Below are positions 14,145 through 30,921 of a stretch of 37,769 nucleotides of DNA, piece by piece. Every line of letters begins with the position of its first letter. The stretch's first letter is position 1. The notes beneath the pieces are model-generated. The model was not told the DNA's origin. It searched no databases and saw only the letters and a program-made list of their open reading frames with translations. The translations under genes and the position numbers were made by a program. The DNA is taken from positions 1 to 37,769 of the forward strand of contig JAFGNZ010000369.1 in the NCBI GenBank assembly GCA_016926755.1, in the 5' to 3' direction. This stretch comes from Myxococcaceae bacterium. GTDB lineage: Bacteria; Myxococcota; Myxococcia; Myxococcales; Myxococcaceae.

Positions 14145-15269
14145 TTGAGCCCTGAACTCCCGCTCGCGCCCGCGCTGGCGCCGACTCCGGCGGCAGAGGC
14201 CGCGGAGCCGCGGCTGACGCTGCTCGACGGCGGCGCGGAGGCGTATCCGCGGATGCTCGAGGCCATCGAGTCCGCCACGCGGCGCGTCCACCTGGAGGTC
14301 TACACCTTCGAGCGGGAGGGCGTGGGCTCGCGCTTCCTGGCGGCGCTGGCGGCGGCGGCGCAGCGGGGCGTGGAGGTGAAGGTCATCGTCGACGGCTGGG
14401 GGAGCATGGGCGAGAGCGGCGCCATCACGTCGACGCTGCTAGCGGCGGGGGCGAAGGTGCGGGTGTACAACCCGCTCACGTCGATCTTCTTGGGGCGGGC
14501 CTGGCGCAACCACCGGAAGATCCTCCTGGTGGATGACCGGGTGGCGTTCATCGGCGGCATCAACATCGGGGACGAGTACGCGGGCGTGGATGGGGAGCCG
14601 GGCTGGGCGGACCTGGTGGTGGAGCTGCGCGGGGAGATCTGCGTACAGCTCGGCGCGAAGCTGCAGGCGGGGGCGGTGGCGCTGAGCTCGGGGCCGGTGC
14701 GCGTGTTCCTCTCGGGCTTTGGGGGAGGGCGGCGGCTGCAGCAGCGCTACCTGGACGCGCTCCTGGAGGCGAAGCAGCAGGTGGTGCTGGCGCACGCGTA
14801 CTTCCTGCCGGATCGGGGCTTCATGCGCGCGGTCAACCGCGCGGCGAAGCGAGGCGTCGCCGTGCACCTGCTGCTGGCGGGGCGCAGCGACGTGGCCTTC
14901 GCGCGCGCGGCGACCATGCGCCTGTACTGCTACTTCCTGCGCGGCGGCGTGCACATCCACGAGTGGACGGCCTCCACGCTGCACGCCAAGGCGGCGGTGG
15001 TGGATGGGCGGCGGCTGCTGGTGGGCAGCTTCAACCTGGATCCGCTGTCCCTGGTGAACCTGGAGACGCTGGTGGACGTGGAGGAGGCGGGGGTGGCGGC
15101 GCAGGCGACGGCGTGGCTGGACAGGCACCTGCGGGGGGCCCGGCGCATCACCCTGGAGGAGTGCGCGCGCACGGGGCTGCAGGCCTGGCTCCTGGACATC
15201 CTCGGGCTGGCGGGCGCGCGGCTCGCGGAGGCCTTCGCCCGCTTCATCGGCCGGCGCCACCGGCGGTAG
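14145..15269 (+). CDS. Phospholipase D / cardiolipin synthase-like protein
   Basis: A 374-residue PLD-superfamily enzyme with two HxK(x)4D motifs: NHRKILLVDDRVAFIGG (His123, Lys125, Asp130) and LHAKAAVVDGRRLLVGSFN (His280, Lys282, Asp287), each followed by the usual GG/GS-x-N. It lacks N-terminal membrane segments, unlike classic Cls, so it is closer to the ClsB-type or cytoplasmic PLD-like proteins. It would transfer or hydrolyse phosphatidyl groups. The TTG at 14145 is the first start after an in-frame stop and has no close Shine-Dalgarno, so the start is uncertain by some residues. Confidence 0.88.
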   Translation: MSPELPLAPALAPTPAAEAAEPRLTLLDGGAEAYPRMLEAIESATRRVHLEVYTFEREGVGSRFLAALAAAAQRGVEVKVIVDGWGSMGESGAITSTLLAAGAKVRVYNPLTSIFLGRAWRNHRKILLVDDRVAFIGGINIGDEYAGVDGEPGWADLVVELRGEICVQLGAKLQAGAVALSSGPVRVFLSGFGGGRRLQQRYLDALLEAKQQVVLAHAYFLPDRGFMRAVNRAAKRGVAVHLLLAGRSDVAFARAATMRLYCYFLRGGVHIHEWTASTLHAKAAVVDGRRLLVGSFNLDPLSLVNLETLVDVEEAGVAAQATAWLDRHLRGARRITLEECARTGLQAWLLDILGLAGARLAEAFARFIGRRHRR

Positions 15270-15288
15270 GGCGGAAGGCCCGGCGTCG

Positions 15289-15852
15289 TCAAACCTCTTC
15301 GAACTTCATGCCCGTGGCGCCCTGGCGCTCCAAGGCACTCCTGATCTCCTCGGAGACGATCAACGCGCCGGGCCATCCCTCTGGACGGAACACCTTGGCC
15401 TCCGAAACCTTCGACTTGTCGATGCGCATGTCACGAACGTCCCGGTACTGGCCAACCTTGTGAGGCACTCCATCCTCGTGAGTCCACAACCGGATTCTGG
15501 AGGACTGCTCGTCGATGCAACGGATCAACCGCGTGGCCACGAGGATGAGGTACTGATCCGGCTGGCCCTGGATATCCACCGGGATGAGCTGCACATCCCC
15601 GGGAGACAGCTCCGTGAACACGGACGCGATCCGGATGTGAACCACGGGGATCCTGGAGTTCGTCTCGGAGAAGTCCAGCGGCTTGCCATCGCGCTCGATG
15701 AGGATCTTCAAGCGCCCGTCGACGCTCACGGGAGCTCCCAGCCTGAAGTCCCAGTCGTCCACCCTACGGCCCTTTTCATCCGTGGGGTTCTTCAGGTGCC
15801 AGCGTCCCCGGATATAGAGATCGTCATACAACTCGAAGAAGCGCATCGTCAT
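15289..15852 (-). CDS. Imm11 (MXAN_0049-type) immunity protein, no toxin beside it
   Basis: A 187-residue soluble protein of the Imm11 / DUF1629 family. It opens MRFFELYDDLYIRGRWHLKN, contains DWDFRLGAPVSVDGRLKILI and PVDIQGQPDQYLILVATRLI, and ends with the KVFRPEGWPGALIVSEEIR element found near the C-terminus in this family. MXAN_0049 of Myxococcus xanthus protects against the nuclease toxin MXAN_0050. Here the neighbours are cas2 (107 nt upstream) and a PLD gene on the other strand; no toxin gene is next to it. Two ATGs (15852 and 15846) are possible; the second has GAAGG at a better spacing. Confidence 0.85.
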   Translation of the reverse strand: MTMRFFELYDDLYIRGRWHLKNPTDEKGRRVDDWDFRLGAPVSVDGRLKILIERDGKPLDFSETNSRIPVVHIRIASVFTELSPGDVQLIPVDIQGQPDQYLILVATRLIRCIDEQSSRIRLWTHEDGVPHKVGQYRDVRDMRIDKSKVSEAKVFRPEGWPGALIVSEEIRSALERQGATGMKFEEV

Positions 15853-15958
15853 GAGCCTTCTATCGAGCCTTGCCCCGGGTTACGAGTTGGTTCAGTTCGG
15901 TGCCCGGCGTGTTGATCTCTCTTGCCAGGTCATCGAGTCGAATCCTCCCCTCCTTGCT

Positions 15959-16249
15959 TCAGACAATGGTGGGGCCCGTCCGGGCCTCCGCGCACGCGCG
16001 GCCCAGGCTCTCCACGGCCTCAGCCGCCCGCCCTTCCGCAGGCCCAATGTCGATGAACAGCACCTGATCCTCTCGGGCGTTGAGGCATCCGCTCAGCCTG
16101 TCCTTCAGCTGAGCCAGCGCCATCCGCGTCAGATCACAGCGGAAGACGGAGAGTTGTAGATGCTCGCCGTACCCTTTCAATGTCCGGAACACCTGCCTCA
16201 GCCGTCGCGGCTCGCTGATGTCGTACGTCACGATATAGCGCTGTCGCAT
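15959..16249 (-). CDS. cas2: CRISPR-associated endonuclease Cas2
   Basis: A 96-residue Cas2. It begins MRQRYIVTYDISEPRRLRQV with the conserved Asp10 at the end of the first strand, then VFRTLKGYGEHLQLSVFRCDL and a DQVLFIDIG strand. The length is normal for the family. Cas2 is the structural partner that bridges two Cas1 dimers during spacer integration. The ATG at 16249 has AGGAGG just upstream, overlapping the end of the cas1 remnant. The gene itself looks intact, but the adjacent Cas1 is not. Confidence 0.95.
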   Translation of the reverse strand: MRQRYIVTYDISEPRRLRQVFRTLKGYGEHLQLSVFRCDLTRMALAQLKDRLSGCLNAREDQVLFIDIGPAEGRAAEAVESLGRACAEARTGPTIV

Positions 16250-16257
16250 GGTCCCTC

Positions 16258-16629
16258 CTATCGCGTGCGGAACCCCGGGTACTCCGGCAGCTCCCCAAGA
16301 AGGTGGCGCGCCAGGAGCCGACTCTGCACCTCCAGCACGCGTCGGTACGAGATGCGGTAGCCGAACACCGGGTGGGTCACTACCTCGTCCATCCGCCGCT
16401 CATAGGCACGCATGAAGCGCTTCCGCGCCTCGGCCTTGAGGGTGACCCCTACAGGATGGCACTGGAAATCCTCCGGCGTTACCACTCCCGTGTTCACCGC
16501 CGTGAGCACCACGGAGTCCGCGATCAGCGGCCGGAACTCCTCCATCAGATCCAACGCCAGCGCCGGGCGGCCATAACGTGGCTGATGATAGAAGCCCAGG
16601 AATGGATCCAACCCCACCGCGCGGGCAAT
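16258..16629 (-). pseudogene. cas1: cas1 remnant (C-terminal third), fused to truncated CRISPR repeat
   Basis: About 123 codons read [20 protein letters not shown], then [20 protein letters not shown] and continue to a TAG 8 nt before the cas2 ATG. This is the C-terminal third of Cas1 and contains the catalytic His (GFYH) and Asp (LALDLMEEF). The N-terminal lobe and the catalytic Glu are missing, as is the Cas4 domain normally fused in front of Cas1 in type I-G. Upstream the frame enters 17 nt identical to a CRISPR repeat. A GTG at 16617 could give a short peptide, but it would lack the active-site Glu and the beta-sandwich domain, so it is called a pseudogene. Confidence 0.93.
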
Positions 16630-19600
16630 CTCTCGGCCGTGGAGACCTGATTCGGACCTTCGGGGACACCTACCTCGTAACGCTTCAACGGAGCCACGAC
16701 CTCTCGGCCGTGGAGACCCTGGGAGGGGTGGGGAGCTGGCGGAGCCAGCGGGGCTTCAACGGAGCCACGACCTCTCGGCCGTGGAGACGACATGGGGCCC
16801 ATCACGCAGCTTGCGCCACCGCCCGCTTCAACGGAGCCACGACCTCTCGGCCGTGGAGACGCGAGCGTGGCGCCGTCGCAGGTGGCGCAGCGGGCGAGAA
16901 TGCTTCAACGGAGCCGCGACCTCTCGGCCGTGGAGACCATGTTGCGATAGGCGGCGAGCCGCCCGAGGAAATCGCTTCAACGGAGCCACGACCTCTCGGC
17001 CGTGGAGACCGTCCAGGCCTTGGAGCTGGCCGGGTGGACGGTGGTGCTTCAACGGAGCCACGACCTCTCGGCCGTGGAGACCACCAACCTCGCACGAGGG
17101 CTCTAATGGCTTTCCCGCTTCAACGGAGCCACGACCTCTCGGCCGTGGAGACGTCCGCCGCCACGTCCTGGGAGCGCAGCGTAGGCCCGCTTCAACGGAG
17201 CCACGACCTCTCGGCCGTGGAGACGGTGCAGACGACGTAGGCCGAGTCCTTCGTATCCTTGCTTCAACGGAGCCACGACCTCTCGGCCGTGGAGACTGAG
17301 CTGGGCGAGCTCACCGTCAGCAACCGCCATATGCTTCAACGGAGCCACGACCTCTCGGCCGTGGAGACGTCCACAGCCACACCAGACTTCCACAGCCCCA
17401 CATGGCTTCAACGGAGCCACGACCTCTCGGCCGTGGAGACCATCAACACCGTCCTCGAACTGGAGCGCCTGGGGTGGCTTCAACGGAGCCACGACCTCTC
17501 GGCCGTGGAGACCAATGCCGTGGAGTTGCAACTGCTCGGCAATGCCGCTGCTTCAACGGAGCCACGACCTCTCGGCCGTGGAGACTTGGAGAGGCTGCCA
17601 TCGTGTAGAGTTTGACGCCGACGCTTCAACGGAGCCACGACCTCTCGGCCGTGGAGACGTGGTGAAGCTGCTGCGCGAGGTGGGCAGTCTCATCATGCTT
17701 CAACGGAGCCACGACCTCTCGGCCGTGGAGACAGATGGGCGCGTGTGCGTGGCGACTGGCTACTTGGACGCTTCAACGGAGCCACGACCTCTCGGCCGTG
17801 GAGACTGAGCGGAGTGCAGTCGGTCGGTGCGTACGTGCGCAAGCTTCAACGGAGCCACGACCTCTCGGCCGTGGAGACGCGGGCGCGGTCGATGGGGGCC
17901 CAGCGGGTTACGTCGCTTCAACGGAGCCACGACCTCTCGGCCGTGGAGACTTGGCGTTTGCCGCGGTGGCGCACGGGTCCACCGTGCTTCAACGAAGCCA
18001 CGACCTCTCGGCCGTGGAGACGCGGGGACGGTGACGGCGCGGCTGGCGTTGCTCGAGCTTCAACGGAGCCACGACCTTTCGGCCGTGGAGACTCACCGAG
18101 GTGCGCGATCAGCTTCGGAAGACGAGCTGAGGCTTCAACGGAGCCACGACCTCTCGGCCGTGGAGACCCGCTCACCGAGACCCCCGGAGGGAGCCGGATG
18201 TTGCTTCAACGGAGCCACGACCTCTCGGCCGTGGAGACCCCTGTCCAGTCGCTCTCCTCGGTGAGGTCCGGCAGGCTTCAACGGAGCCACGACCTCTCGG
18301 CCGTGGAGACGGAAGTCATCCAGCCCAGCGGCCTCCTCGGGCGCGCTTCAACGGAGCCACGACCTCTCAGCCGTGGAGACGAAATCCCGCGCCACACCTC
18401 AGGCCAGCAGCGAGGCTTCAACGGAGCCACGACCTCTCGGCCGTGGAGACTCGAAGTTGATGCGCCCAGGCACCTCTATCGTCCAGCTTCAACGGAGCCA
18501 CGACCTCTCGGCCGTGGAGACTCGGCGGGCGTGCAGCCCAGGCGCATGGCTACGTTGCTTCAACGGAGCCACGACCTCTCGGCCGTGGAGACGTCGATAG
18601 ATCAGTCAGGGCGAAGTGGGAGAAGCAGCTTCAACGGAGCCACGACCTCTCGGCCGTGGAGACGCACCTGGAGCGGGTGCAGTCCACGCGCCTGCCGAAG
18701 CTTCAACGGAGCCACGACCTCTCGGCCGTGGAGACTCCACGCCGCCGGCCTTGGCCGCAGCGCGCATTGCAAGGCTTCAACGGAGCCACGACCTCTCGGC
18801 CGTGGAGACTGGAGGAGCTTCGCGACGGCGAGCGTGCTGACACGCACGCTTCAACGGAGCCACGACCTCTCGGCCGTGGAGACGGCGCGACGGGGGCGCT
18901 GCTGCTCCCGGACGTGTTCGGGCTTCAACGGAGCCACGACCTCTCGGCCGTGGAGACTGGTTCAGCCCACGGTGAAGGACGCGGAGGGCTACTCGCTTCA
19001 ACGGAGCCACGACCTCTCGGCCGTGGAGACTCCCAGGGCCGCGTGAGGGCGCTGCGCTTCTCATCGCTTCAACGGAGCCACGACCTCTCGGCCGTGGAGA
19101 CTTCGAGCGGATGCGCGCGCTCGACGACAGCATGAAGCTTCAACGGAGCCACGACCTCTCGGCCGTGGAGACCGCCGCCGGGAGCCCGCGGCACAGCTGG
19201 ACTTCTCGCTTCAACGGAGCCACGACCTCTCGGCCGTGGAGACGACACCGGGCACGACGTGCTGGAGCGCGTCTGTCGGCTTCAACGGAGCCACGACCTC
19301 TCGGCCGTGGAGACTCGCGGTAGTTGGCGAGCAGCTCCCTCACCTCGAGGCTTCAACGGAGCCACGACCTCTCGGCCGTGGAGACACGTTCACGGTGAAG
19401 TGCATCCAGCGCTGCGCCAAGCTTCAACGGAGCCACGACCTCTCGGCCGTGGAGACTGAGATGGCCACGGCCAGCGACTTCCCCGTTCTCCTGGAGCTTC
19501 AACGGAGCCACGACCTCTCGGCCGTGGAGACCAACCAGCACCGCGCCATGCGCTACTGGGTCGCCTGTTTCGGCTTCAACGGAGCCACGACCTCTCGGCC

Positions 19601-21266
19601 GTGGAGACCGCAGTTCCCACGCGCCCTTATCCGGCACCTGCCAGCTTCAACGGAGCCACGACCTCTCGGCCGTGGAGACCGGATGCCCGCCATCACCACG
19701 CCGTAGGGCACCTCGCTTCAACGGAGCCACGACCTCTCGGCCGTGGAGACGTAGCGCCCGGCCTCGCCCGTGCTGCCGCGGCTCCGGCTTCAACGGAGCC
19801 ACGACCTCTCGGCCGTGGAGACCGCTCGTCTTCGCCAGCGAGTACACACCGCAGGTGTTGCTTCAACGGAGCCACGACCTCTCGGCCGTGGAGACGGCCA
19901 TGGCGTTACACCTTCTCCAGCGCGGGGTTGAGGCTTCAACGGAGCCACGACCTCTCGGCCGTGGAGACTTGGCCACACGGGCTCGCATCTCGCCTTCACC
20001 CGCGCTTCAACGGAGCCACGACCTCTCGGCCGTGGAGACGGCAACCTCGAAGGCCGAGAAGGTGCGCCTCATCGGGCTTCAACGGAGCCACGACCTCTCG
20101 GCCGTGGAGACAGGCCAAGGAAGGGGCGATGGAGCTGCCGGTGCTTGCTTCAACGGAGCCACGACCTCTCGGCCGTGGAGACCGCCGACGGCGGGGCTGC
20201 ACTTCACCGAGGCCACCTTGCTTCAACGGAGCCACGACCTCTCGGCCGTGGAGACACCGCTCTTCCGCACCATCCTCATCGATCCCCCATGGCTTCAACG
20301 GAGCCACGACCTCTCGGCCGTGGAGACAGGGCGGAGACGCGGAGCTTGCGCACGCCCTCATGCGGCTTCAACGGAGCCACGACCTCTCGGCCGTGGAGAC
20401 CCACGGTGGAAGCCACGGTGGTGACGGCGGATTTCATGCTTCAACGGAGCCACGACCTCTCGGCCGTGGAGACTGCGCGGCCATGCCGAACGCGGAGGCG
20501 AGATCCGTGCTTCAACGGAGCCACGACCTCTCGGCCGTGGAGACGGTGGTGCTCACCGAGGCCCTGCGCCGCGTGCGTGGCTTCAACGGAGCCACGACCT
20601 CTCGGCCGTGGAGACGCGGATGCCGCGAGCAGCCGGCTGAGCGAAGCGGCGCTTCAACGGAGCCACGACCTCTCGGCCGTGGAGACCATGCGTTCGCGTT
20701 GTTCGGTTGCGGCTCGACCTCTGCTTCAACGGAGCCACGACCTCTCGGCCGTGGAGACCGCCACACCACCGCCCGAGGCTGCTGCGCGTAAGTTGCTTCA
20801 ACGGAGCCACGACCTCTCGGCCGTGGAGACCAAGGTGGGGGAGGGCCGGGACGCCATGACGGTGAAGCTTCAACGGAGCCACGACCTCTCGGCCGTGGAG
20901 ACGCCAGGGTTCGCGCCTTACCTGGATGGCGTCGAAGTGGCTTCAACGGAGCCACGACCTCTCGGCCGTGGAGACGAAGCACGGCCTACACGGCAGGTGA
21001 AGTACGCGTGCTTCAACGGAGCCACGACCTCTCGGCCGTGGAGACGCGGCGGATTCGGGAGACGTTCTCCGCGTGTAAGACGCTTCAACGGAGCCACGAC
21101 CTCTCGGCCGTGGAGACCTGGCAGCCACCTGAGCGCCCGCCCCTTCTCCGGGGCATGAGCTTCAACGGAGCCACGACCTCTCGGCCGTGGAGACGGGACT
21201 GGCTCGTCTCTACTCAAGCCGTGGCCCCTAGCTTCAACGGAGCCACGACCTCTCGGCCGTGGAGAC
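16630..21266 (-). CRISPR. Type I-G CRISPR array, 64 full repeats plus a 17-nt partial repeat, 64 spacers
   Basis: The 36-nt repeat, written in the inferred transcribed (minus) sense, begins GTCTCCACGG and ends CCGTTGAAGC. I counted full repeats from 16682 to 21266, with 64 spacers of 34-41 nt (mostly 35-37), and a truncated copy at 16630-16646. Four repeats carry single substitutions (16902, 17986, 18057, 18345), all in the cas1-side half; the others are identical. The transcribed sense is inferred from the TTGAAGC 3' end, the cas gene direction and the decay at the left end. CCACGGCC and GGTCGTGG can form an 8-bp stem (one G-U) closed by GAGA, a suitable site for the Cas6 domain of Csb2. The 72-nt period keeps reading frames open across the array; these are not genes. 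Confidence 0.98.
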
Positions 21267-21571
21267 AGCCCCCAGAAATTCGGGTGGCCTGACGGGTACT
21301 TACCACACCCCCTGCGAGCGAGCCTCCCATCCCTGCACGCTCCTTCCTCTTCCTTGCCAACACCTCGCCCATCCAGCGCAACAAATCCCTGAAACTCCTC
21401 GGCTTTCTTATTTGCGAGCAGTCCGCTCGTCCCCACGTATCACCTTACCGCTCGACATCCGATGTTCTATCCACTTGTCAAACAACGTCGGGCAGTCATT
21501 CCCATCCATACCCGGGCAGCTTGCTCCGCCCCCGCTCTGGTCGGGATTGCCGCCGCCCCCTTCGGCACCGC
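21267..21571 (-). promoter_or_regulatory. CRISPR leader between csb2 and the array
   Basis: These 305 nt hold no gene and separate the csb2 stop from the first (youngest) repeat. The stretch is visibly richer in A/T runs than its neighbours (for example around 21375-21415). On the minus strand TTGACA at 21481-21476 is a perfect -35 box, about 210 nt before the first repeat, but the hexamer 17 nt further (ATGTCG) is a poor -10. It should drive pre-crRNA synthesis and be the integration site for new spacers. Confidence 0.75.
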
Positions 21572-23248
21572 TCAGCGAGAGGCTTCCGGGATGAACTGGC
21601 CCAGCCCGAAGTGGGAGCCGTAACCGAGACACAGGGGACCCCGGACATCCTCAGCGAAGGTAAGTCGCAGGCCAAGGGCCGGCTGAGAGGGAGGACGCCG
21701 CGCCTCCCCAGGCCGCTCGCGCCGGAAGTGGCGCCAGCGCCGCGCGAGCACCTGCCCCCGACTGCCCTCCTCTCCCTTCACGAGCCGAACCGAGGCGCTC
21801 GAGAGGTGGAGCACCCCTCCTAGTGCCTCCGCCGGAGCGTAGTCCTTGGGTTCAACTTCGAACTCCACTGCCACCGGCTCGGGAAAGCCGCGCTCCACCA
21901 GCTCCGCGCGCACCTGACCTTCCAGCGAATTCCTCCCCTGCCGCTTGAAGTGGCGCGGCGCGAGGAATGGGGTCGCGCTCACCCATCGTCGCGCCGCCGA
22001 CGTCTGGGGAACCGCCGCGGAAAAGTCCTCCCGGCGCCCCACCTCCAGCAGCGTGACGAGCACCGAGGGCAAGCCCGCGGCGTAGAGAGCAGACACGCGC
22101 TCCAGCGCATGGCGCGCGCGCATGTCGAAGCCCATGGGTGCATGAATGAGGACATGATCCATGCGTTGGTCGCCGTCGAGATCCAACGGCATCAGCGCGG
22201 CGTGGCGATGGCCGCGCAGCGGCTCCCCTGTCTCCGCGCGGGCCGTGAAGCAGGGGGAGGGTCCCTCTCCCGCCTCCAGGTCGGATTTGCCCACAAGCGC
22301 CTGGTGGAGCTGATCCATGCGCAGCACGGCATCCACCAGCGGTGGGAGGACATCACGGCGCTTCGTCTTCGAGGTGAGCGCGAGCAGGGCTGTGTCGGCG
22401 AAGCGCGTCACCTCTCGCCTGGGTGGAGAAGGAAGCTGGTGGGACAACGCATCCTCGGGGCGCCAATACGACAGCCAACGACTCCCCGGGGGCTGGCTCC
22501 ACCCCACCTGCTGGAGCCAGCGCGTATCCACTCGGAGGGCGTCCACCAGCTCCTCTGGGAAGAGCGCCAACACCTGCGCCTCCTGTCGCTTCGTCAGCGC
22601 GGACGGGGGCGGCTTGCGCTTCTGCTCGGCATCATGCTGCTCCTGCCGCAGCCGCCGAGCCCGTTCACGCTCCAGTGACTCCTGCCGCCAGCGCGCGTAG
22701 TCAGCCGCGGGGATTGGAGCCAGCAGGGGGAAGCGCTCATAACCGAGGCCTGGGGGATGCTCGGACAGCTCGCAGGCCTCCAGCCCTCCCTGGGGCAACG
22801 CAGCCACCCGGCGCACCTCGGCCCAGGACTCCGCGCGTCCCAGGTAGCCCACGGCCGACACCAGCTCGTCAAGGAGCGCCGTCTCCTCCGCGGCGAGCGC
22901 CACGGGGAACTCCACGCCCAGGCAGGCATCGTCCCCGCGGCCCACCTGAGCGAAAGCGTCCAGCACCTTGGTCGTCTTGCCGTCGAACTTGGGGAGATAG
23001 TGGCGCGTGTGGCCCGTAGAGGCCGGGGGGAGGTGGTAGCGCGGCGGCGCGGCGGCGAGCTTCTCCAGCAGCGCTCGGCCCACGGGCGGCACCTCCGCCC
23101 AGCCACACCGGTTGAAGCCCGCGGCGAGCAGGGCCCTACACAGGCGCCAGGGGCTTGGGGGCCACTCGATGGCGCCCTCGTTGACGTGCCGACCCCAGGG
23201 TGTCGCGTGATAGCGACCCGCAAGGAAGCGGATCTCGAGCAGCGTCAT
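21572..23248 (-). CDS. csb2: Csb2 (GSU0054 family), Cas5-Cas6 fusion
   Basis: A 558-residue type I-G protein. The N-terminus (LLEIRFLAGRYHATPWGRHV, then EWPPSPWRLCRALLA) is characteristic of the family. The first half corresponds to Cas5, which caps the 5' handle of the crRNA in Cascade; the second half, with GHRHAALMPLDLDGDQRMDH and RHFKRQGRNSLEGQV, is the Cas6-like part that cuts pre-crRNA, where the GHRH histidines are candidate catalytic residues. It begins 3 nt after csb1 (TGA GCC ATG), so it is in the same operon, and it is the last gene before the leader. The coordinates and length suggest an intact gene. Confidence 0.93.
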   Translation of the reverse strand: MTLLEIRFLAGRYHATPWGRHVNEGAIEWPPSPWRLCRALLAAGFNRCGWAEVPPVGRALLEKLAAAPPRYHLPPASTGHTRHYLPKFDGKTTKVLDAFAQVGRGDDACLGVEFPVALAAEETALLDELVSAVGYLGRAESWAEVRRVAALPQGGLEACELSEHPPGLGYERFPLLAPIPAADYARWRQESLERERARRLRQEQHDAEQKRKPPPSALTKRQEAQVLALFPEELVDALRVDTRWLQQVGWSQPPGSRWLSYWRPEDALSHQLPSPPRREVTRFADTALLALTSKTKRRDVLPPLVDAVLRMDQLHQALVGKSDLEAGEGPSPCFTARAETGEPLRGHRHAALMPLDLDGDQRMDHVLIHAPMGFDMRARHALERVSALYAAGLPSVLVTLLEVGRREDFSAAVPQTSAARRWVSATPFLAPRHFKRQGRNSLEGQVRAELVERGFPEPVAVEFEVEPKDYAPAEALGGVLHLSSASVRLVKGEEGSRGQVLARRWRHFRRERPGEARRPPSQPALGLRLTFAEDVRGPLCLGYGSHFGLGQFIPEASR

Positions 23249-23251
23249 GGC

Positions 23252-24214
<963 letters not shown>

Positions 24215-26440
24215 TCAAATCTCCTCGGGGGCAGCGGTCAGGGTTTCAGCGGGGGAATCCATGTCCTGGGGGAGCACCTCGCCAGCGGTGAACTCCTGGG
24301 ACATGAGGACCTGGTGGCGCAAGCGCTCCAGATCCCGACGAGAGAGCGGAATGGCCAGACTCGCGGCGATCCGGAGCGCGCTGGCGGGGCCACCGAAGGC
24401 GAAGCGGAGCCGGGGCCGCAGCCCCGCGTTGGACAGGCGCGCGAGGGCGAGCCGCACGGCCTCTGGGAGCCGGCCAGCGAGCAGCAGGCGCACGAGGGAC
24501 GAGTCCAAGCGGGGAGCCACCGGGAAGGTCCGCAGCGGCGGAATGTCTGGGAGGTGGGCCAACCGCATGAGCGCATAGGGAGCAGGGAGCGGCGGCGCAG
24601 GCTCGGTGGCCGGCCGGGGCGTGGGGGCCTCCTCCCAGTCCAACGCCATGAGCCCGCGCACGAGACCTGAAAGGCGGCCGTCATCGGTCTGGCCGAGCAG
24701 GAAGGCGCGGACATCGGCGAGTCTGGCATAAGGGCGCCCCGCCAGGGGGAAGGCGTGCGTGCCCACCCGGGCCGCCTCCATCACACGGCGCTGGACGATG
24801 GCGGCCAGATCGGCCGAGAGCTCCCGCCCGCGCCAGACCACCGCCGGATCCGCGACCAGCTCCTTGCTGGTGCTACGGAAGTCCCTCCATGCACGCTCTG
24901 GATCCAACGGCAGGCAATGAACGCGAATGGGCCCAAGCCTCTGCTCCAGGCTTCGTTGCTTGTCCCCGGGTGCCTCCTGGGAGGCAATGGCCGCCGCGAG
25001 GAGGAACTCCGCGCGGTCCTGCCAGGCGGCAGTGAGCCACTGCCCCGAGAGCCGCGGGAGAGGCCGCAGGTTCTTGTCCACGGCCAGCTTCCGGCGCCGC
25101 GCGATGGCGTCCTCAGCCTCTCCCAAGCGAATGAGCAGATCCTGCCAGCGGACGGGATCCTCGCTGCGGCAGATGGCGAGCATCGCGTCCTCAATGCGGC
25201 GCGCGGCCTTCTCCAGCGCGGGCGTGCCGCTGCTACGCAGGCGCTCCACCCAGGGCTCGAGGGGCTCCAGCAGGTGGACATGGCCGGGCGCTTCTCCCGG
25301 ACGGGGCACGCGCACGCGCCAACGGCCCAAGGGGACTGCGAGGTTGGACTGGCCGTTGCGTTCGATATAGCCATATCGCTCGAAGGCAGTCACACCTCGC
25401 GCTGCGCCGAGCCGTGCCACGGCGAGCGCCGCCCCCAGCGCCGACTGTGCGCGGTGCGTCCCGGACTGCAACCGGCCCTCGGCAAACAGGGCCTCCACCT
25501 CCGACTGCGTTGCGGGCCCACTCCACAGAGGCATCCACTGCTCTCCACGAGAGGACTCATCGGCGGAGGCGGCGCTGGCATAACCGCTGGCGCGTCCGCG
25601 CACGGCGAAGGGAGCTGAGGCCTGGGGTAGGCCATGGCCATCGAGCCTGCGCACCGCTGCGACGCGCAGCACGAGAGCGCCTTCCAGCGCGAGGACGAAG
25701 TCCCAAGGGTTGAGGAGGCTCTTGCCCTCGAAGCCGGCGGTGCTGTTGGCGCCTCCGGCGCCGCCCGGGAGAAACTGGCCGATGGCCTTGTCTTGCTGCA
25801 GGCCCGGTATCTGGCGACCGAAGAGCGCCTGATCAAGGAGCGGCTCCGCATGGGGGCGCCCCCTGCCCGTCTCCGGATCCATCAACTCCATGAGCCTCTG
25901 CATCTGGTTGTTGGTGAAGTCGAGCCGACCATCATTGCCGCCAGTGCCGAGCAGCGCTGGGTAGTCGATGCCGTCATCTCCACCCGCGAGGACGAGAGCG
26001 GCGTCGAGCCACTCCAGCTCTCCGCCGTCCCAGCGGGCGCGCAGCTCGCGGATGAGCGCGAGCTTCTCCTCCTGCTTGGGGCTCTCCGTGCGCTTGCCTA
26101 CCGCCTCGCGAGCGCGGGCGATGGCGCCGCGGTAGGGCTCCAGCCGGACCGCGCCCCCGGACATGATGGCATCGATGCCGCCCTTGTTATCCTTGGGATA
26201 GAAGCCGCTGCCACCATTCCACGGGGCTACGAGTGGCGTGGGCTTGTAGCGGTGAAGGAAGAAGTCGAGTAACTCCGCCTCGCTCAGCCGGGTAGCAAGG
26301 TGGAATTGATCATGGCGCCAGAAGCCCCGAGCCGCTCGGTCCTCCTGGCCTGCCACGAGCCGAAGGACGCCGAGCGCCTTGAGGTAGTGCGCGAGCGGGC
26401 TGGGCGCACAGCCCGCGAGCACGTGCAGGTGGACGCTCAT
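24215..26440 (-). CDS. csx17: Csx17 (Cas8g/Cas8u2), large subunit of type I-G Cascade
   Basis: A 741-residue protein with the Csx17 signature at the start, HLHVLAGCAPSPLAHYLKAL, followed by WNGGSGFYPKD and STAGFEGKSLLNPWDFVLAL. Csx17 serves as the large subunit that recognises the PAM and binds target DNA in type I-G. The length is typical and no internal stop is present. The ATG at 26440 has no strong Shine-Dalgarno. It is separated from cas3 by 180 nt, whereas csb1 follows after 3 nt, so csx17-csb1-csb2 form a compact block that may have its own promoter. Confidence 0.93.
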   Translation of the reverse strand: MSVHLHVLAGCAPSPLAHYLKALGVLRLVAGQEDRAARGFWRHDQFHLATRLSEAELLDFFLHRYKPTPLVAPWNGGSGFYPKDNKGGIDAIMSGGAVRLEPYRGAIARAREAVGKRTESPKQEEKLALIRELRARWDGGELEWLDAALVLAGGDDGIDYPALLGTGGNDGRLDFTNNQMQRLMELMDPETGRGRPHAEPLLDQALFGRQIPGLQQDKAIGQFLPGGAGGANSTAGFEGKSLLNPWDFVLALEGALVLRVAAVRRLDGHGLPQASAPFAVRGRASGYASAASADESSRGEQWMPLWSGPATQSEVEALFAEGRLQSGTHRAQSALGAALAVARLGAARGVTAFERYGYIERNGQSNLAVPLGRWRVRVPRPGEAPGHVHLLEPLEPWVERLRSSGTPALEKAARRIEDAMLAICRSEDPVRWQDLLIRLGEAEDAIARRRKLAVDKNLRPLPRLSGQWLTAAWQDRAEFLLAAAIASQEAPGDKQRSLEQRLGPIRVHCLPLDPERAWRDFRSTSKELVADPAVVWRGRELSADLAAIVQRRVMEAARVGTHAFPLAGRPYARLADVRAFLLGQTDDGRLSGLVRGLMALDWEEAPTPRPATEPAPPLPAPYALMRLAHLPDIPPLRTFPVAPRLDSSLVRLLLAGRLPEAVRLALARLSNAGLRPRLRFAFGGPASALRIAASLAIPLSRRDLERLRHQVLMSQEFTAGEVLPQDMDSPAETLTAAPEEI

Positions 26441-26620: not shown

Positions 26621-29311
26621 TCAAGGCTGCACCTCTTCTTCCGCGGGAAGCTGAGAGGCCCTCGCGTCCGCAGCCCGCAGCAGCGCTTCGAGGTAGGCGA
26701 GTTGGAACGGCCCATGCCGCTCCAGCAACCCGGTGACGCGCTCCCGCCAGGAGGCTCCATACCGGCCGTTCCAGCCAGCAGCCGCGGAGTCGAGCCGGAG
26801 CACCATCGGAGGCACAGTGGCTGCCATGCCGGCCCGCGTCTCCAGTGTGAAGCCCGGGAGTTCATCACCCTCGCACACACCGTGAATGCCACCGTGCCCC
26901 CGCTCCTGATCATGCGGTGTACCGGTCCATGCGCAGCGGACCTTGCCGTGGTGGGTGCAGACGAGCCAGGCCAGCAGATCGAAGTCCGCTGCGGGGAGGG
27001 CAGCCACCTCACGAGCCAGGGGGTGATCCTCCGGGACACGCTCCCCCTCACTCAGCGGGGCGGGAGGAACCCCGAGCGCTTCGGACAACGACAGGTTCGC
27101 TCCCAGCAGCGCGGGATGCTCAGGGCATGTGCGCCGCAGCAGTTCGAAGAGCGCGAGCGTGCTGGCCAACTCATGGCGGAAGCCGGGGCGTTCGGGATAG
27201 GGCGGGCGCCTCCACGCCCCTTCCGGGGCCTTGGCCAGCTCACGGGACTTTCCGCGCCCCCCCGCCTCAGCGCGCTTCTCCTCGCGGATGGCGGACTGGA
27301 ACACGGCGTGTGCCTTGCCCACATCGTGCCAGCGCCCGGCCAGCTCCAGAACCTGAAGGAGTGCGGGAGGAAGCGCGAGCGCGCGTCCGATCTCTTGGGC
27401 TTCGGCGCCAGTCTCGCGTCCGTGGACGCGGATGGACTTCCAGCCACTCCCGGCGGCCACCCGGGAGAGGCTATCGTCCTCCTCAGCCCCCGATGTCTTC
27501 TCGAGCGCAGTCGCAGTGGGATCCGGATCCTTCGCCGGCTCCACCGGGAGGACCTCGTCCCTGCTTCGCGGATCCCACCCCACGAGCGGGTCATACCCAC
27601 CCGCCTTCGCTGGAAGCATCAGCGTCATCCCTGGGACGATGTGCCAGAAGCGGTGGACGCGTTCCCACCGTCCACTCACGTAATCCAGGCGATAGGCGAC
27701 GCACTCATCGCCCTTGCCGAGCCAATCCTTCAATTCATGCACTGGGACGGCGCACAGCTCCTCACGACGTACTGGCCCTACCACCTCGCGCTCGAAGCGG
27801 GCCCGCGGCTCCTCCAGGTGGCGCCAGAAGACGGAGACATCGTGCTCCTCACCGCCGCGGATGTAGCGGCTCACGTCGAGATCCACTCCGCTGAGATCCG
27901 CGCTCGTGTCGAACAGGTCCTCCAGATCCTTCCTGCGCAACACGTGATCGGGTGCAAAGGGGTAGAGGCGCGCGAGGAGGGCGGGGTCAGTGCGTGACAG
28001 CTCCTCCTCGAAGGCTTCGAGAGCACTCAGGGAGACGTCGGCTTCATCCTTGCGAAGTCTTTCGAGTGCAGCAGCGCTGGCCTCCAGTTCTGGAAGGGAG
28101 TAAGGCCGAGCCCGTTGCTTGTCGGCGGGCACGGAGCCCACCACCACGACCTCACCCGAGTCCCCTTCGTAGCGCGCGGCCCGTCCGAAGCGCTGAACGA
28201 GGCTCGGCCATGGCGCCAACTCTGTCACCAGCAACCGGGCGGAGAGGTCCACCCCCGCCTCCACCACCTGAGTGGCGATGATGATCCGGCCAGAAGGTGG
28301 CAGCTCGCCTCGAGGGCAAAGGAAATCCTTCGCCCAGTCCGCACGCTCATGCCCCCGGAAGCGGCCGTGGATGAGCCGGAGCTCAGGTGCTCCCGAAGGC
28401 GGTGCTGCCTTGCGCGCCTTCGCGCCCTTGCCACTCTTGCTGACCGCTCCCGCCTTCAATGCCTCGAAGATCTCCACGGCGCGACGGACGGTGTTGACGA
28501 TGACGAGCGTCAGGGAGCCCGGCGCATGCCCCATCAAGACACGAGCAGCCACCTCGCCTGGCTCGGCGACGGCTGGCTCGCGGTGGAGCGCCTTGCGGAC
28601 ATTCCAGAGGCCACCGGAGCGCGCCTTCGCGGGGATTCGGACGGTGGAGGCAGCCAGCGCTCGAGCCTCGGCAGCGAAGTCAACCGTCTCCAACCAGCCC
28701 GGCTGGAGCGTGGCGCTCATCCACCAGGTGCAGGTAGGCCGAGGCGCGCCATGAATCTCGGCGGCGCTCCCTCGTAGCCCGGCGAGTTGGGTGCTCGTGG
28801 CGAGGCCCACGCCCATGAGCTGCACTTCGTCCATCACCCAGAGGGTGTCCTGATGCAGGAGGCCGAACTCCATGGGCCACTTACCGCGGGCCGCGCCGAA
28901 GCCGCGGTTGAGGGCACGAGACAGGAGCATGTCCTGAGTGCCGATGAGGATGGTGGGACGCTCCGGAGTCAGGGCCCAGGGCCCGGCATCCGAGCCGCCC
29001 ATCAGGACATGGACACGCACGGTCTGCCCAAGCCCCGCACGATCCAGCCAATCGCGGACCGCACGCTCGGTCTGTTCGACGAGCACGCGCATAGGCAGGC
29101 AGAAGACGAGGCGCAGCGGCCAGCTCGCATCCTCGCGGACGACGCGATGGAAGAGCCAGGGAAGCACCACGCCCGCCGTCTTCCCGAAGCCGGTAGGGAT
29201 GCGCAGAAGCCGATTCCCACAAGCCTGTGGGCGAGCCACCTCTTCCTGCCAGCGGTGAGGAGGAAACCCCGTGGTCTTCTGGAACCAATCCGTGAATCGC
29301 TCCGCCGTCAT
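26621..29311 (-). CDS. cas3: Cas3 helicase with C-terminal HD nuclease (type I-G)
   Basis: An 896-residue Cas3 in helicase-then-HD order, as in type I-G. Helicase motifs: Walker A PTGFGKT (39-45), motif II DEVQ (161-164, in place of the more usual DEAH/DEVH), motif III SATL (199-202), motif VI QRFGRAAR (373-380). The HD domain begins near 625 with His630 (VHGRETG), then WHDVGKAH (His662-Asp663), FRHELAS (His713) and CTHHGK (His787-His788), so all metal ligands are present. Recruited by Cascade, it unwinds and cuts target DNA. ATG at 29311 with a G-rich stretch just upstream. It lies 104 nt after a Ser/Thr kinase gene on the same strand. Confidence 0.95.
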   Translation of the reverse strand: MTAERFTDWFQKTTGFPPHRWQEEVARPQACGNRLLRIPTGFGKTAGVVLPWLFHRVVREDASWPLRLVFCLPMRVLVEQTERAVRDWLDRAGLGQTVRVHVLMGGSDAGPWALTPERPTILIGTQDMLLSRALNRGFGAARGKWPMEFGLLHQDTLWVMDEVQLMGVGLATSTQLAGLRGSAAEIHGAPRPTCTWWMSATLQPGWLETVDFAAEARALAASTVRIPAKARSGGLWNVRKALHREPAVAEPGEVAARVLMGHAPGSLTLVIVNTVRRAVEIFEALKAGAVSKSGKGAKARKAAPPSGAPELRLIHGRFRGHERADWAKDFLCPRGELPPSGRIIIATQVVEAGVDLSARLLVTELAPWPSLVQRFGRAARYEGDSGEVVVVGSVPADKQRARPYSLPELEASAAALERLRKDEADVSLSALEAFEEELSRTDPALLARLYPFAPDHVLRRKDLEDLFDTSADLSGVDLDVSRYIRGGEEHDVSVFWRHLEEPRARFEREVVGPVRREELCAVPVHELKDWLGKGDECVAYRLDYVSGRWERVHRFWHIVPGMTLMLPAKAGGYDPLVGWDPRSRDEVLPVEPAKDPDPTATALEKTSGAEEDDSLSRVAAGSGWKSIRVHGRETGAEAQEIGRALALPPALLQVLELAGRWHDVGKAHAVFQSAIREEKRAEAGGRGKSRELAKAPEGAWRRPPYPERPGFRHELASTLALFELLRRTCPEHPALLGANLSLSEALGVPPAPLSEGERVPEDHPLAREVAALPAADFDLLAWLVCTHHGKVRCAWTGTPHDQERGHGGIHGVCEGDELPGFTLETRAGMAATVPPMVLRLDSAAAGWNGRYGASWRERVTGLLERHGPFQLAYLEALLRAADARASQLPAEEEVQP

Positions 29312-29415: not shown

Positions 29416-30921
29416 TTATGGCGGGTCCGAGGTGGGCTGACGCCGGGTCGGGAACGAAGGCAGGTAACAGGCCCCGTTCCAGTCGTACGCGTCCTCCTTG
29501 CACGGGGGCGGAGCATCAGCGAGGCGGTACCAACACCCATCGCGTATCTCCACCTCGCCATGCCTCGTGCACGGAGGCTTGCGCTGACCTTCGAAGGGCT
29601 TCTCGCGCATCGGAAGTCCCACCGCCGACCTGCTTTCGGCCGTGGGCATGGGGGCCAGCGTCGATACAGGTGCGGCGATGGCGCCGTCTCCCACTGCCAC
29701 GATGCCACCTTCGCGGGAGTCACTCCCCGAGGTGGCCCGTTCCATCCCCCGGGCTCCATACAGCCACGCCACTACCAGCAGGGCAGCCAGTCCCCCCAGG
29801 CTTGCCGCCGCTCTCCGTACCCAGACGGGTGTGAAGACATGAGGTCGCGGCTGCTCGATGGCGGCCTCGGGTCGAGACTTCTCCTCCAGCTCGCGTCGCT
29901 CGATCTCCGCCTTCGCTGCAGCATCCCGTTCGGCGGCCCGGCGCACGACTGCCAGAGCGCGCCGACGAGAGCCGCTGGATGAGTCCCAGAGGAACAGCGG
30001 CGCGTCCGCTTCAGGCCCCACGCTCGCCACGGCCCGCTCCAGCGCTTCGGCTGCCTCCTGAGCCTGGCCGTTGAAGCGCTCGACAGGAGGCACTGCCAGC
30101 AATCGCAGGATGAGGCCTTCCAGGTCCGGGCAGACCTTGGGATTGAGCGCGCGTGCCGGAAGCGGTCCATCCCCTTCCTCCCGCCACACCTCCGCTCCTC
30201 TCTCCTCGGGGCAGGTGGGCGGCGGGTATTCGTCCGTCACCAAGCGGTACGCCGTGATGCCCAGCGCGAACAGGTCATCGCACGCGCTGGCCTCGTAGTG
30301 GGCCGTGGGGTGGCGCGAGAACACGCGCTGAAAGCTCCAGGCCTCGGGGCTGCGGTAGGCAGCCGTTCCCGGAGGCAGCAGGCGCGAGGTGAGGGTGGCC
30401 GCGCCCTTGTAATCCCCTGCCCCAAAATCCATGAGGAAGGCGTGAGCGTCCGCTGGCCTCACCAGCACGTTTTCTCCTTTGACGTCCCGGTGCACGCCGC
30501 CGACGCGGTGTGTGGCGTCCAGGGCCCAGGCCACCTGGGACAGCAGCCTGAGCACCTGGCGCGAGGAGGGGTTACGCCGGGCAGCCCATTCATACAGGGG
30601 CACTCCCTCCACCCAGTCCAGCACCAGGAAGGGAAAGGCACCAGACGGGTGCTCCCACAGCCCCTGATCATGGAGGCGGGGAACATGGCGGCTGTGAATG
30701 CGAGAGAGCAGCTCCGCCTCACGTGCGAAGCGCTCGTCTCGAGGATAGATGGCCAGCTTGAGGGCGAACGGGCCAGCCGCCTCACGGCCTTCACGCTCCG
30801 CCCGGTAGACGGTGCCGTAGGCGCCTCGGCCTCTCCAGCCCCGAATCCGCCACGAGCCCACCCGCATTCCCGGCGGCAGGGAGAGCGGATCGACTTCCAG
30901 CGAGGACAGCCTCTTCCCCAT
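29416..30921 (-). CDS. Ser/Thr protein kinase with cysteine-motif tail, upstream of cas3
   Basis: A 501-residue Hanks kinase: glycine loop GRGAYGTVYRAE, Lys55 in FALKLAIYP, HRDVKGEN (Asp146), DFG at 165-167, YRSPEAW near 189. The kinase domain ends near 300. A charged helical stretch (325-350) precedes one membrane segment at about 371-389. The external tail ends with two Cys-bearing motifs (PPCTRHGEVEIRDGCWY and PPPCKEDAYDWNGACYLP) that recur in other myxobacterial kinases of this layout. ATG at 30921 has GGAG 7 nt upstream. It reads in the same direction as cas3; a role in CRISPR control is possible but unsupported. Confidence 0.92.
   Translation of the reverse strand: MGKRLSSLEVDPLSLPPGMRVGSWRIRGWRGRGAYGTVYRAEREGREAAGPFALKLAIYPRDERFAREAELLSRIHSRHVPRLHDQGLWEHPSGAFPFLVLDWVEGVPLYEWAARRNPSSRQVLRLLSQVAWALDATHRVGGVHRDVKGENVLVRPADAHAFLMDFGAGDYKGAATLTSRLLPPGTAAYRSPEAWSFQRVFSRHPTAHYEASACDDLFALGITAYRLVTDEYPPPTCPEERGAEVWREEGDGPLPARALNPKVCPDLEGLILRLLAVPPVERFNGQAQEAAEALERAVASVGPEADAPLFLWDSSSGSRRRALAVVRRAAERDAAAKAEIERRELEEKSRPEAAIEQPRPHVFTPVWVRRAAASLGGLAALLVVAWLYGARGMERATSGSDSREGGIVAVGDGAIAAPVSTLAPMPTAESRSAVGLPMREKPFEGQRKPPCTRHGEVEIRDGCWYRLADAPPPCKEDAYDWNGACYLPSFPTRRQPTSDPP

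Follow-up and report, generated by a model that had tools for sequence, protein, structure and literature searches.

The stretch of DNA analysed here (the window; 37,769 nucleotides, nt) is the whole of contig JAFGNZ010000369.1 (C84 in our labelling) from the Myxococcaceae bacterium assembly GCA_016926755.1 (G000), a draft of 9,592,223 bases in 409 contigs that is rated 100% complete with 3.67% contamination. Its minus strand, on which all window features given below lie, carries a locus of clustered regularly interspaced short palindromic repeats (CRISPR) with, in order, cas3g, csx17, csb1, csb2, a 305-nt leader region, the CRISPR array, a remnant of cas1 and cas2. Its interference module places the locus in type I-G, but it does not qualify as an adaptation-competent system. 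It resembles known type I-G loci (formerly I-U; cas3-csx17-csb1-csb2-cas4/1-cas2) in the four interference genes, in a repeat ending GTTGAAGC, in the Cas4/1-type remnant and in Cas2, but it differs from them in having the array between csb2 and cas1 and in lacking Cas4 and about two thirds of Cas1. Csx17 itself is rare in these bacteria: it was found in 4 of 96 genomes of the family and in 9 of 195 genomes in a search of the phylum, and all 6 further genomes of the genus lacked a match.

The array and cas1 meet at 16629/16630. The last full repeat is followed by a 35-nt spacer (16647-16681) and then by a truncated terminal repeat consisting of the first 17 of its 36 nt (16630-16646), and the very next base, 16629, opens the cas1 reading frame (IARAVGLDP...); a direct reading and a script re-parse both confirmed this join, which a first-pass annotation of the sequence had described in the same terms. 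The 17-nt stump is not a chance resemblance to the repeat, because every 36-mer in the rest of the window, whichever the strand, differs from it at more than 12 positions; a single 11-mer is all that recurs. What remains of the cas4/cas1 fusion (16258-16629) is its last 123 codons and the stop, as determined from the list of open reading frames, from an alignment and from the Cas4g/Cas1g model NF049935, which the remnant matches at positions 425-546 of 546 with 209 bits, the cut-off being 560. Missing are all of Cas4 (about the first 208 positions, an extent estimated from the parts of the model to which separate Cas1 and Cas4 proteins align) and about 64% of Cas1, in agreement with the annotation, which had put the loss at Cas4 and the first two thirds of Cas1. 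Aligned with nine full-length Cas4/1 proteins, the remnant begins about 60 columns past the conserved LLGxEGNAAR glutamate segment and keeps the FYHQPR segment and a second 10-residue segment, so that the Glu-His-Asp triad of Cas1 is incomplete for want of the glutamate segment. The annotation had stated that only the His and Asp of the triad survive; the loss of the Glu is borne out by the alignment, and the retained His and Asp are presumably the other ligands of the active site. The first in-frame start codon of the remnant is a GTG at 16617. Downstream, cas2 (15959-16249; 96 amino acids) starts with an ATG at 16249, can be followed through to its stop and passes the cut-offs of its models (PF09827, E = 1.2e-18; TIGR01573, E = 5.8e-9), and thus is intact and left without a Cas1 partner. 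In the type I-G protein MbCas4/1 of M. barkeri, E375 is given as a Cas1 active-site residue and was mutated, according to the accessible part of PMC10504553.

The array itself (16647-21266; leader end at 21266, trailer end at 16647) consists of 64 full repeats and 64 unique spacers of 34-41 nt. The 36-nt repeat, GTCTCCACGGCCGAGAGGTCGTGGCTCCGTTGAAGC on the minus strand, runs from 21266 to 16682 and is perfect in 60 of its 64 copies, which upholds the earlier statement that most repeats are identical. The other four copies, with one substitution each, lie at 16902, 17986, 18057 and 18345 and are numbers 4, 19, 20 and 24 from the trailer end; their confinement to the 24 trailer-most of the 64 repeats, which has a probability of 0.017 if they were placed at random, is as expected if the array kept growing at its leader until fairly late. 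In addition, the reading frame of the cas1 remnant is open and matches 40 of 40 conserved Cas1 columns, and cas2 matches 13 of 13 (a conserved column being a position alike in at least 90% of relatives). Because of the open frame and the conserved columns, acquisition looks to have been lost fairly recently, with decay of the remnant barely begun, as the annotation had suspected. The stretch from the stop codon of csb2 to the first repeat (21267-21571) is assigned as the leader region by position only; in a comparison with 11 relatives the alignable part was confined to the repeat and, in L050 and L054, a few adjacent bases.

All four INTERFERENCE genes (cas3, csx17, csb1 and csb2) are full length with respect to their models, and TIGR02570, TIGR02165 and TIGR02621 are matched above their cut-offs. 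They comprise csb2 (Cas5/6g; 21572-23248; TIGR02165, positions 1-492 of 492; 58/58 conserved columns), csb1 (Cas7g; 23252-24211; TIGR02570, positions 9-177 of 178, and PF09617; 93/94), csx17 (Cas8g1; 24215-26440; TIGR04113, 624 bits, positions 1-715 of 718; 104/106) and the helicase-nuclease gene cas3g (26621-29311; TIGR02621, 721 bits, positions 2-854 of 854; 150/152). The completeness that had been claimed for these genes and for cas2 is therefore well founded, and the capacity for interference is probably retained, to judge from gene integrity. CRISPR RNAs made from the 64 stored spacers would still guide Csb1, Csb2, Csx17 and Cas3 to TTN-flanked targets, and Cas2 together with the Cas1 stub would be unable to add spacers. 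As to the earlier description of an interference-competent locus that cannot take up spacers on its own, the broken adaptation genes and the intact-looking interference genes were thus found as described, and its functional part is what they suggest.

The targets of the spacers bear on this point. All spacers were searched against the 96 genomes with the best 3 candidates per genome scored, so that the matches are a lower bound, and two follow-up searches of the own genome covered the best 40 of 115 and the best 40 of 110 candidates. Spacer 17 (20040-20075) matched Myxococcus phage Mx4 (28/36) and the genomes G028 (32/36), G017 (32/36) and G058 (31/36), and these targets are flanked by TTC, TTC, TTT and TTG (4/4 TTN, for one spacer with related targets). 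The flanks agree with the protospacer-adjacent motif (PAM) of type I-G, TTN, as given in the accessible part of PMC9638904. Mx4 was the only phage matched by any spacer (E = 0.4, two records). Among the candidates scored, four spacers had a match of almost full length beyond the array in their own assembly. Spacer 15 (20183-20219) is identical (37/37) to a stretch of the own queA gene (G000:C281:9142-9178), identified by the Pfam family Queuosine_synth (408 bits) and by an adjoining tgt; spacer 40 (18381-18414) is identical (34/34) to C346:7206-7239; spacer 59 (17010-17045; 34/36) matches C391, a prophage-like contig with integrase, KilA-N and ParB-like genes; and spacer 1 matches a retron, described below. 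The flanks of these matches are TGG (spacers 15 and 1), GGC (40) and CGC (59), and since none is TTN the self-matching spacers may be harmless to their host. Three weaker matches to the own genome were left uncounted (C149, 90% over 31 nt; C306, 21 nt; C45, 89% over 28 nt). The stretch matched by spacer 15 also occurs at 89-97% in many other genomes of the family, and with the right PAM such a spacer would mean self-targeting of a core gene.

That another Cas4/Cas1 in the genome might act on the array, as the annotation had proposed, was not supported by the genome search: profiles PF01867 (Cas1) and NF049935 (Cas4/1) found the remnant and nothing else in the assembly, and PF01930 (Cas4) found no match. 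In 14 known genomes used as controls, the same profiles gave matches in 9 (PF01867), 8 (PF01930) and 7 (NF049935, 0 of 7 above cut-off), and within the family NF049935 had some match in 46 of 96 genomes, 9 of them above its cut-off. With nothing beyond the remnant turning up in this draft assembly, a helper Cas1 is unlikely. The same search bears on the possibility that the join is a mis-assembly across the repetitive array and that the real genome holds a whole cas4-cas1. Such an error is conceivable in a draft of 409 contigs in which the window is one contig with 64 near-identical repeats, but just 17 nt of repeat are present at the join, the window has no further repeat-like stretch beyond the array, and the roughly 1.3 kb of missing cas4-cas1 was not found anywhere in an assembly rated complete. 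Furthermore, in a comparison for microhomology at the join, the repeat had no more than 1 contiguous nt in common with the cas1 genes of the 39 relatives listed, the data containing no close relative of this cas1 (best 79.5% identical in protein). We regard a mis-assembly as very improbable.

The way in which the join arose was approached through type I-G loci fetched by Csx17 (best 80 of 415 relatives), in which tblastn and repeat detection served to establish gene order. For 53 of the 80 loci a judgement on the position of cas4/1 was possible: 44 have csb2-cas4/1 with no array between them, and 29 of these 44 show an array beyond; in 8, cas4/1 lies at another place or on the opposite strand; and a single one, L078, has the order csb2-array-cas4/1. 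The 27 loci not judged comprise 6 without csb2, 20 without cas4/1 on the stretch and 1 (L103) with an array after csb2 and no cas4/1; many of the 20 end at contig ends, and they were not used for a frequency of loss. A Csx17 tree, built from the 49 rows in which Csx17 and the Cas1 end are both present, puts the window in a clade of 9 rows (support 99/97) whose other rows represent six distinct loci, with two identical pairs. The order is csb2-cas4/1-cas2 in five of these six, and in the remaining one, L060, the module is on the opposite strand, so the ancestral order in the clade of the window was probably csb2-cas4/1-cas2-leader-array. From that order a deletion alone cannot give csb2-leader-array-cas1 tail-cas2, and a relocation or duplication must be added; we infer that two or more rearrangements produced the join, and that a lone deletion starting from the usual order did not. 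Leader and array would first have been moved to a place between csb2 and cas4/1; the loss of cas4 and most of cas1 would then have come from an illegitimate join within the palindrome of the repeat. An alternative route would be a tandem duplication with breakpoints in the repeat and in cas1, followed by losses. The breakpoint sits in the middle of the inverted repeat of the CRISPR repeat, which may be a fragile point. A scar of a duplicated cas2 or leader, looked for at the leader region, was not found (score 22 against a shuffle maximum of 32). An exchange of the adaptation module with another type I-G lineage, a candidate raised by the Cas1 end being closest to that of G043 (79.5%), was not supported, as the relatives around the window in the Cas1-end tree overlap with those around it in the Csx17 tree.

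The annotation had attributed the join to one deletion, which would require an ancestor with csb2-leader-array-cas4/1-cas2. L078 shows the needed order up to the end of its contig: at 15201-19705 an array lies between csb2 and cas4/1, the cas4 start is present and the contig ends inside cas4/1. However, this order was seen in only 1 of the 53 judged loci and in none of the 6 distinct relatives in the Csx17 clade of the window, and the usual array beyond cas2 is also missing here, without any remnant of repeat or leader. A single deletion is thus not established; we hold it to be a possible but lesser explanation.

With considerable confidence, we therefore read this type I-G locus as one that probably still reads its memory but cannot write, with the trailer end of the array fused, within a repeat, to the last third of cas1 through at least two rearrangements. 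Besides L078, three observations weigh against this reading. The assembly is a draft from a single strain, used here as assembled contigs, and a small cas4-cas1 contig could be missing from it. Another 16, weaker, matches of other spacers in genomes of the family (27-32 identities) include none with a TTN flank; we take them as chance or gene similarity, and because of them the support for the PAM comes from spacer 17 by itself. Lastly, the four non-TTN flanks of the self-matches fit tolerated self-spacers, but chance would usually give the same.

Two neighbouring genes complete the description of the locus. A gene for an Imm11-type immunity protein (15289-15852) directly follows cas2, at the place where most judged relatives have a leader and array, and a serine/threonine kinase gene (29416-30921) adjoins cas3, its similarity to the defence kinase MAD6 being below the cut-off.

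Spacer 1 (21195-21230) is leader-proximal and therefore the newest, and it matches at 35 of 36 positions the own retron msr-msd gene on contig C160. The match sits upstream of a reverse transcriptase (PADLOC RT_XIII, E = 9.1e-185, best of 45 families; also RVT_1), in a region that is bounded by the inverted repeats a1/a2 (GGGAGGGTTCG.../...CGAACCCTCCC) and has a fold z of -9.3, with 0 of 200 shuffles as good. A reverse transcriptase with an upstream structured region between inverted repeats is what we take to be the layout of a retron msr-msd gene. Rfam gave two chance-level matches on the region and no retron family, so the identification depends on the reverse transcriptase, the inverted repeats and the fold. 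By its reverse transcriptase and a predicted non-coding RNA (ncRNA), the C160 element is a type XIII retron, whose output of multicopy single-stranded DNA (msDNA) is a prediction. The assembly has three RT_XIII-like reverse transcriptases (on C160, C76 and C95), and the C160 region was the only one seen to match a spacer.

A search with the retron region, in which the best 7 candidates per genome were scored, found it in 12 of the 96 family genomes, the own one included. Among the matches listed, those outside a retron locus were spacer 1 and two sites in G041, which is another species of the same genus, and both of the latter proved to be spacers, numbers 34 and 114 of 235 in an array of 236 repeats whose neighbouring Cas4/1 is of subtype I-MYXAN (TIGR03983, 525 bits). 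The sites of the retron piece are 21195-21230 in the window, 2431 and 8133 in L228 (G041:C5), and 9276-9535 in L162. Spacer 1 covers the segment at its positions 1-36 and the G041 spacers cover it at 1-37 and 2-37, so that the ends agree within 1 nt. For every retron spacer the best fit is to the retron allele from its own lineage: spacer 1 matches the G000 allele at 35/36 against 29-32/36 for the alleles of four other genomes, and the G041 spacers match the G041 allele, and equally that of G040, at 35/37 and 34/36 against 32/37 and 31/36 for G000. None of the remaining spacers of the two arrays (64 and 235 spacers, respectively) has 80% identity or more to any part of the retron locus that was fetched. 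In a fold of the DNA strand, the segment falls mostly within the lower 5' arm. Judged from the position of the cas genes, the G041 spacers may read opposite to spacer 1. The G041 array (L228; G041:C5:106045-122848) has all 236 repeats perfect and 8 spacer sequences present twice, which suggests internal duplications.

These matches look like recurrent capture of retron DNA by CRISPR. Since two CRISPR subtypes share the fragment ends within one base and the resident flank is not TTN, the easiest explanation would be that the ends were set by the source, for instance by an arm of the msDNA hairpin. Our hypothesis is that spacer 1 came from reverse-transcribed retron DNA, not from an unseen carrier or from the chromosomal retron gene; capture of that gene, or of such a carrier, may also account for the retron spacers. 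A mobile carrier, i.e. a phage or plasmid with a retron-like segment that is not retron DNA of the host or its kin, is suggested by the fact that none of the three spacers is perfect against the resident retron (35/36, 35/37 and 34/36), that the two G041 spacers share the same two mismatches, and that the resident flanks are GTGG and GGGG, not TTN. Nevertheless, the segment was unmatched in IMG/VR (searched with one exact pattern), the ncRNA region was unmatched in phages, plasmids gave one distant match (Methylobacterium; 72%, E = 2e-16) and one weak one, and the spacers fit the resident or kin alleles better than those of other genomes; a carrier of this kind we consider doubtful.

The general idea of retron capture has a further point against it. 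Three other retron msd queries (from G077, G036 and G028), which we take to be 'Mx162-like', gave no spacer among the matches listed in the 96 genomes, 65 of which had matches (best 6 candidates per genome scored), and therefore retron capture, if real, is not common to all retrons. Among the short matches of this search that were fetched, the one on G004:C24 comes from a retron cut off by the end of its contig, and the matches on G011:C49 and G091:C14, checked for an array only, have none at the match. G091:C76:123734-123772 and G091:C79:119805-119832 are short stand-alone msd-like stretches with no array near, possibly copies of retron DNA. Only as a tentative proposal, which we think rather unlikely to hold in full, do we suggest that arrays of this genus naturally record DNA of resident retrons, a fixed piece of about 36 nt of the msDNA hairpin having been captured at least twice independently, once by type I-G as the last entry before the loss of Cas4/1 and once by I-MYXAN in a second species, and that such self-uptake may have favoured losing the writer.

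Loss of adaptation as such is not new, because the accessible part of PMC11237760 describes myxobacterial type I-G loci whose adaptation module varies or is missing. Those loci likewise have an interference module without working acquisition genes, as far as that part of the source goes, but the window still shows the remnant and the breakpoint inside a repeat. The Mycobacterium tuberculosis complex, for example its Beijing family, has also lost adaptation genes by deletion (cas1-cas2; PMC5310062, from an excerpt), but there the system is of type III-A and cas2 is lost as well, whereas the window keeps cas2 and the tail of cas1. The locus is thus a new instance of a known loss with an unusual join, and it offers a clear natural example in which CRISPR memory was kept and the writing machinery lost with the breakpoint still readable. 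The surprising part is the newest spacer. Retro-Cascorder, an engineered recorder that places reverse-transcribed DNA (RT-DNA) of retrons in CRISPR arrays (as outlined in the accessible portion of the review PMC11394691), has in common with our observation that retron-encoded sequence is kept as CRISPR spacers, and differs from it in that here the case is natural and involves two species and two CRISPR subtypes, with RT-DNA as a hypothetical substrate. A search of the open-access literature, which cannot prove absence, found no natural capture of retron DNA into CRISPR. If retron RT-DNA is indeed a natural prespacer, two bacterial defence systems would exchange material in nature as they do in the engineered recorder, the question of which cellular DNA feeds Cas1-Cas2 would become testable with a defined substrate, and self-acquisition would be suggested as a concrete reason for shedding adaptation genes.

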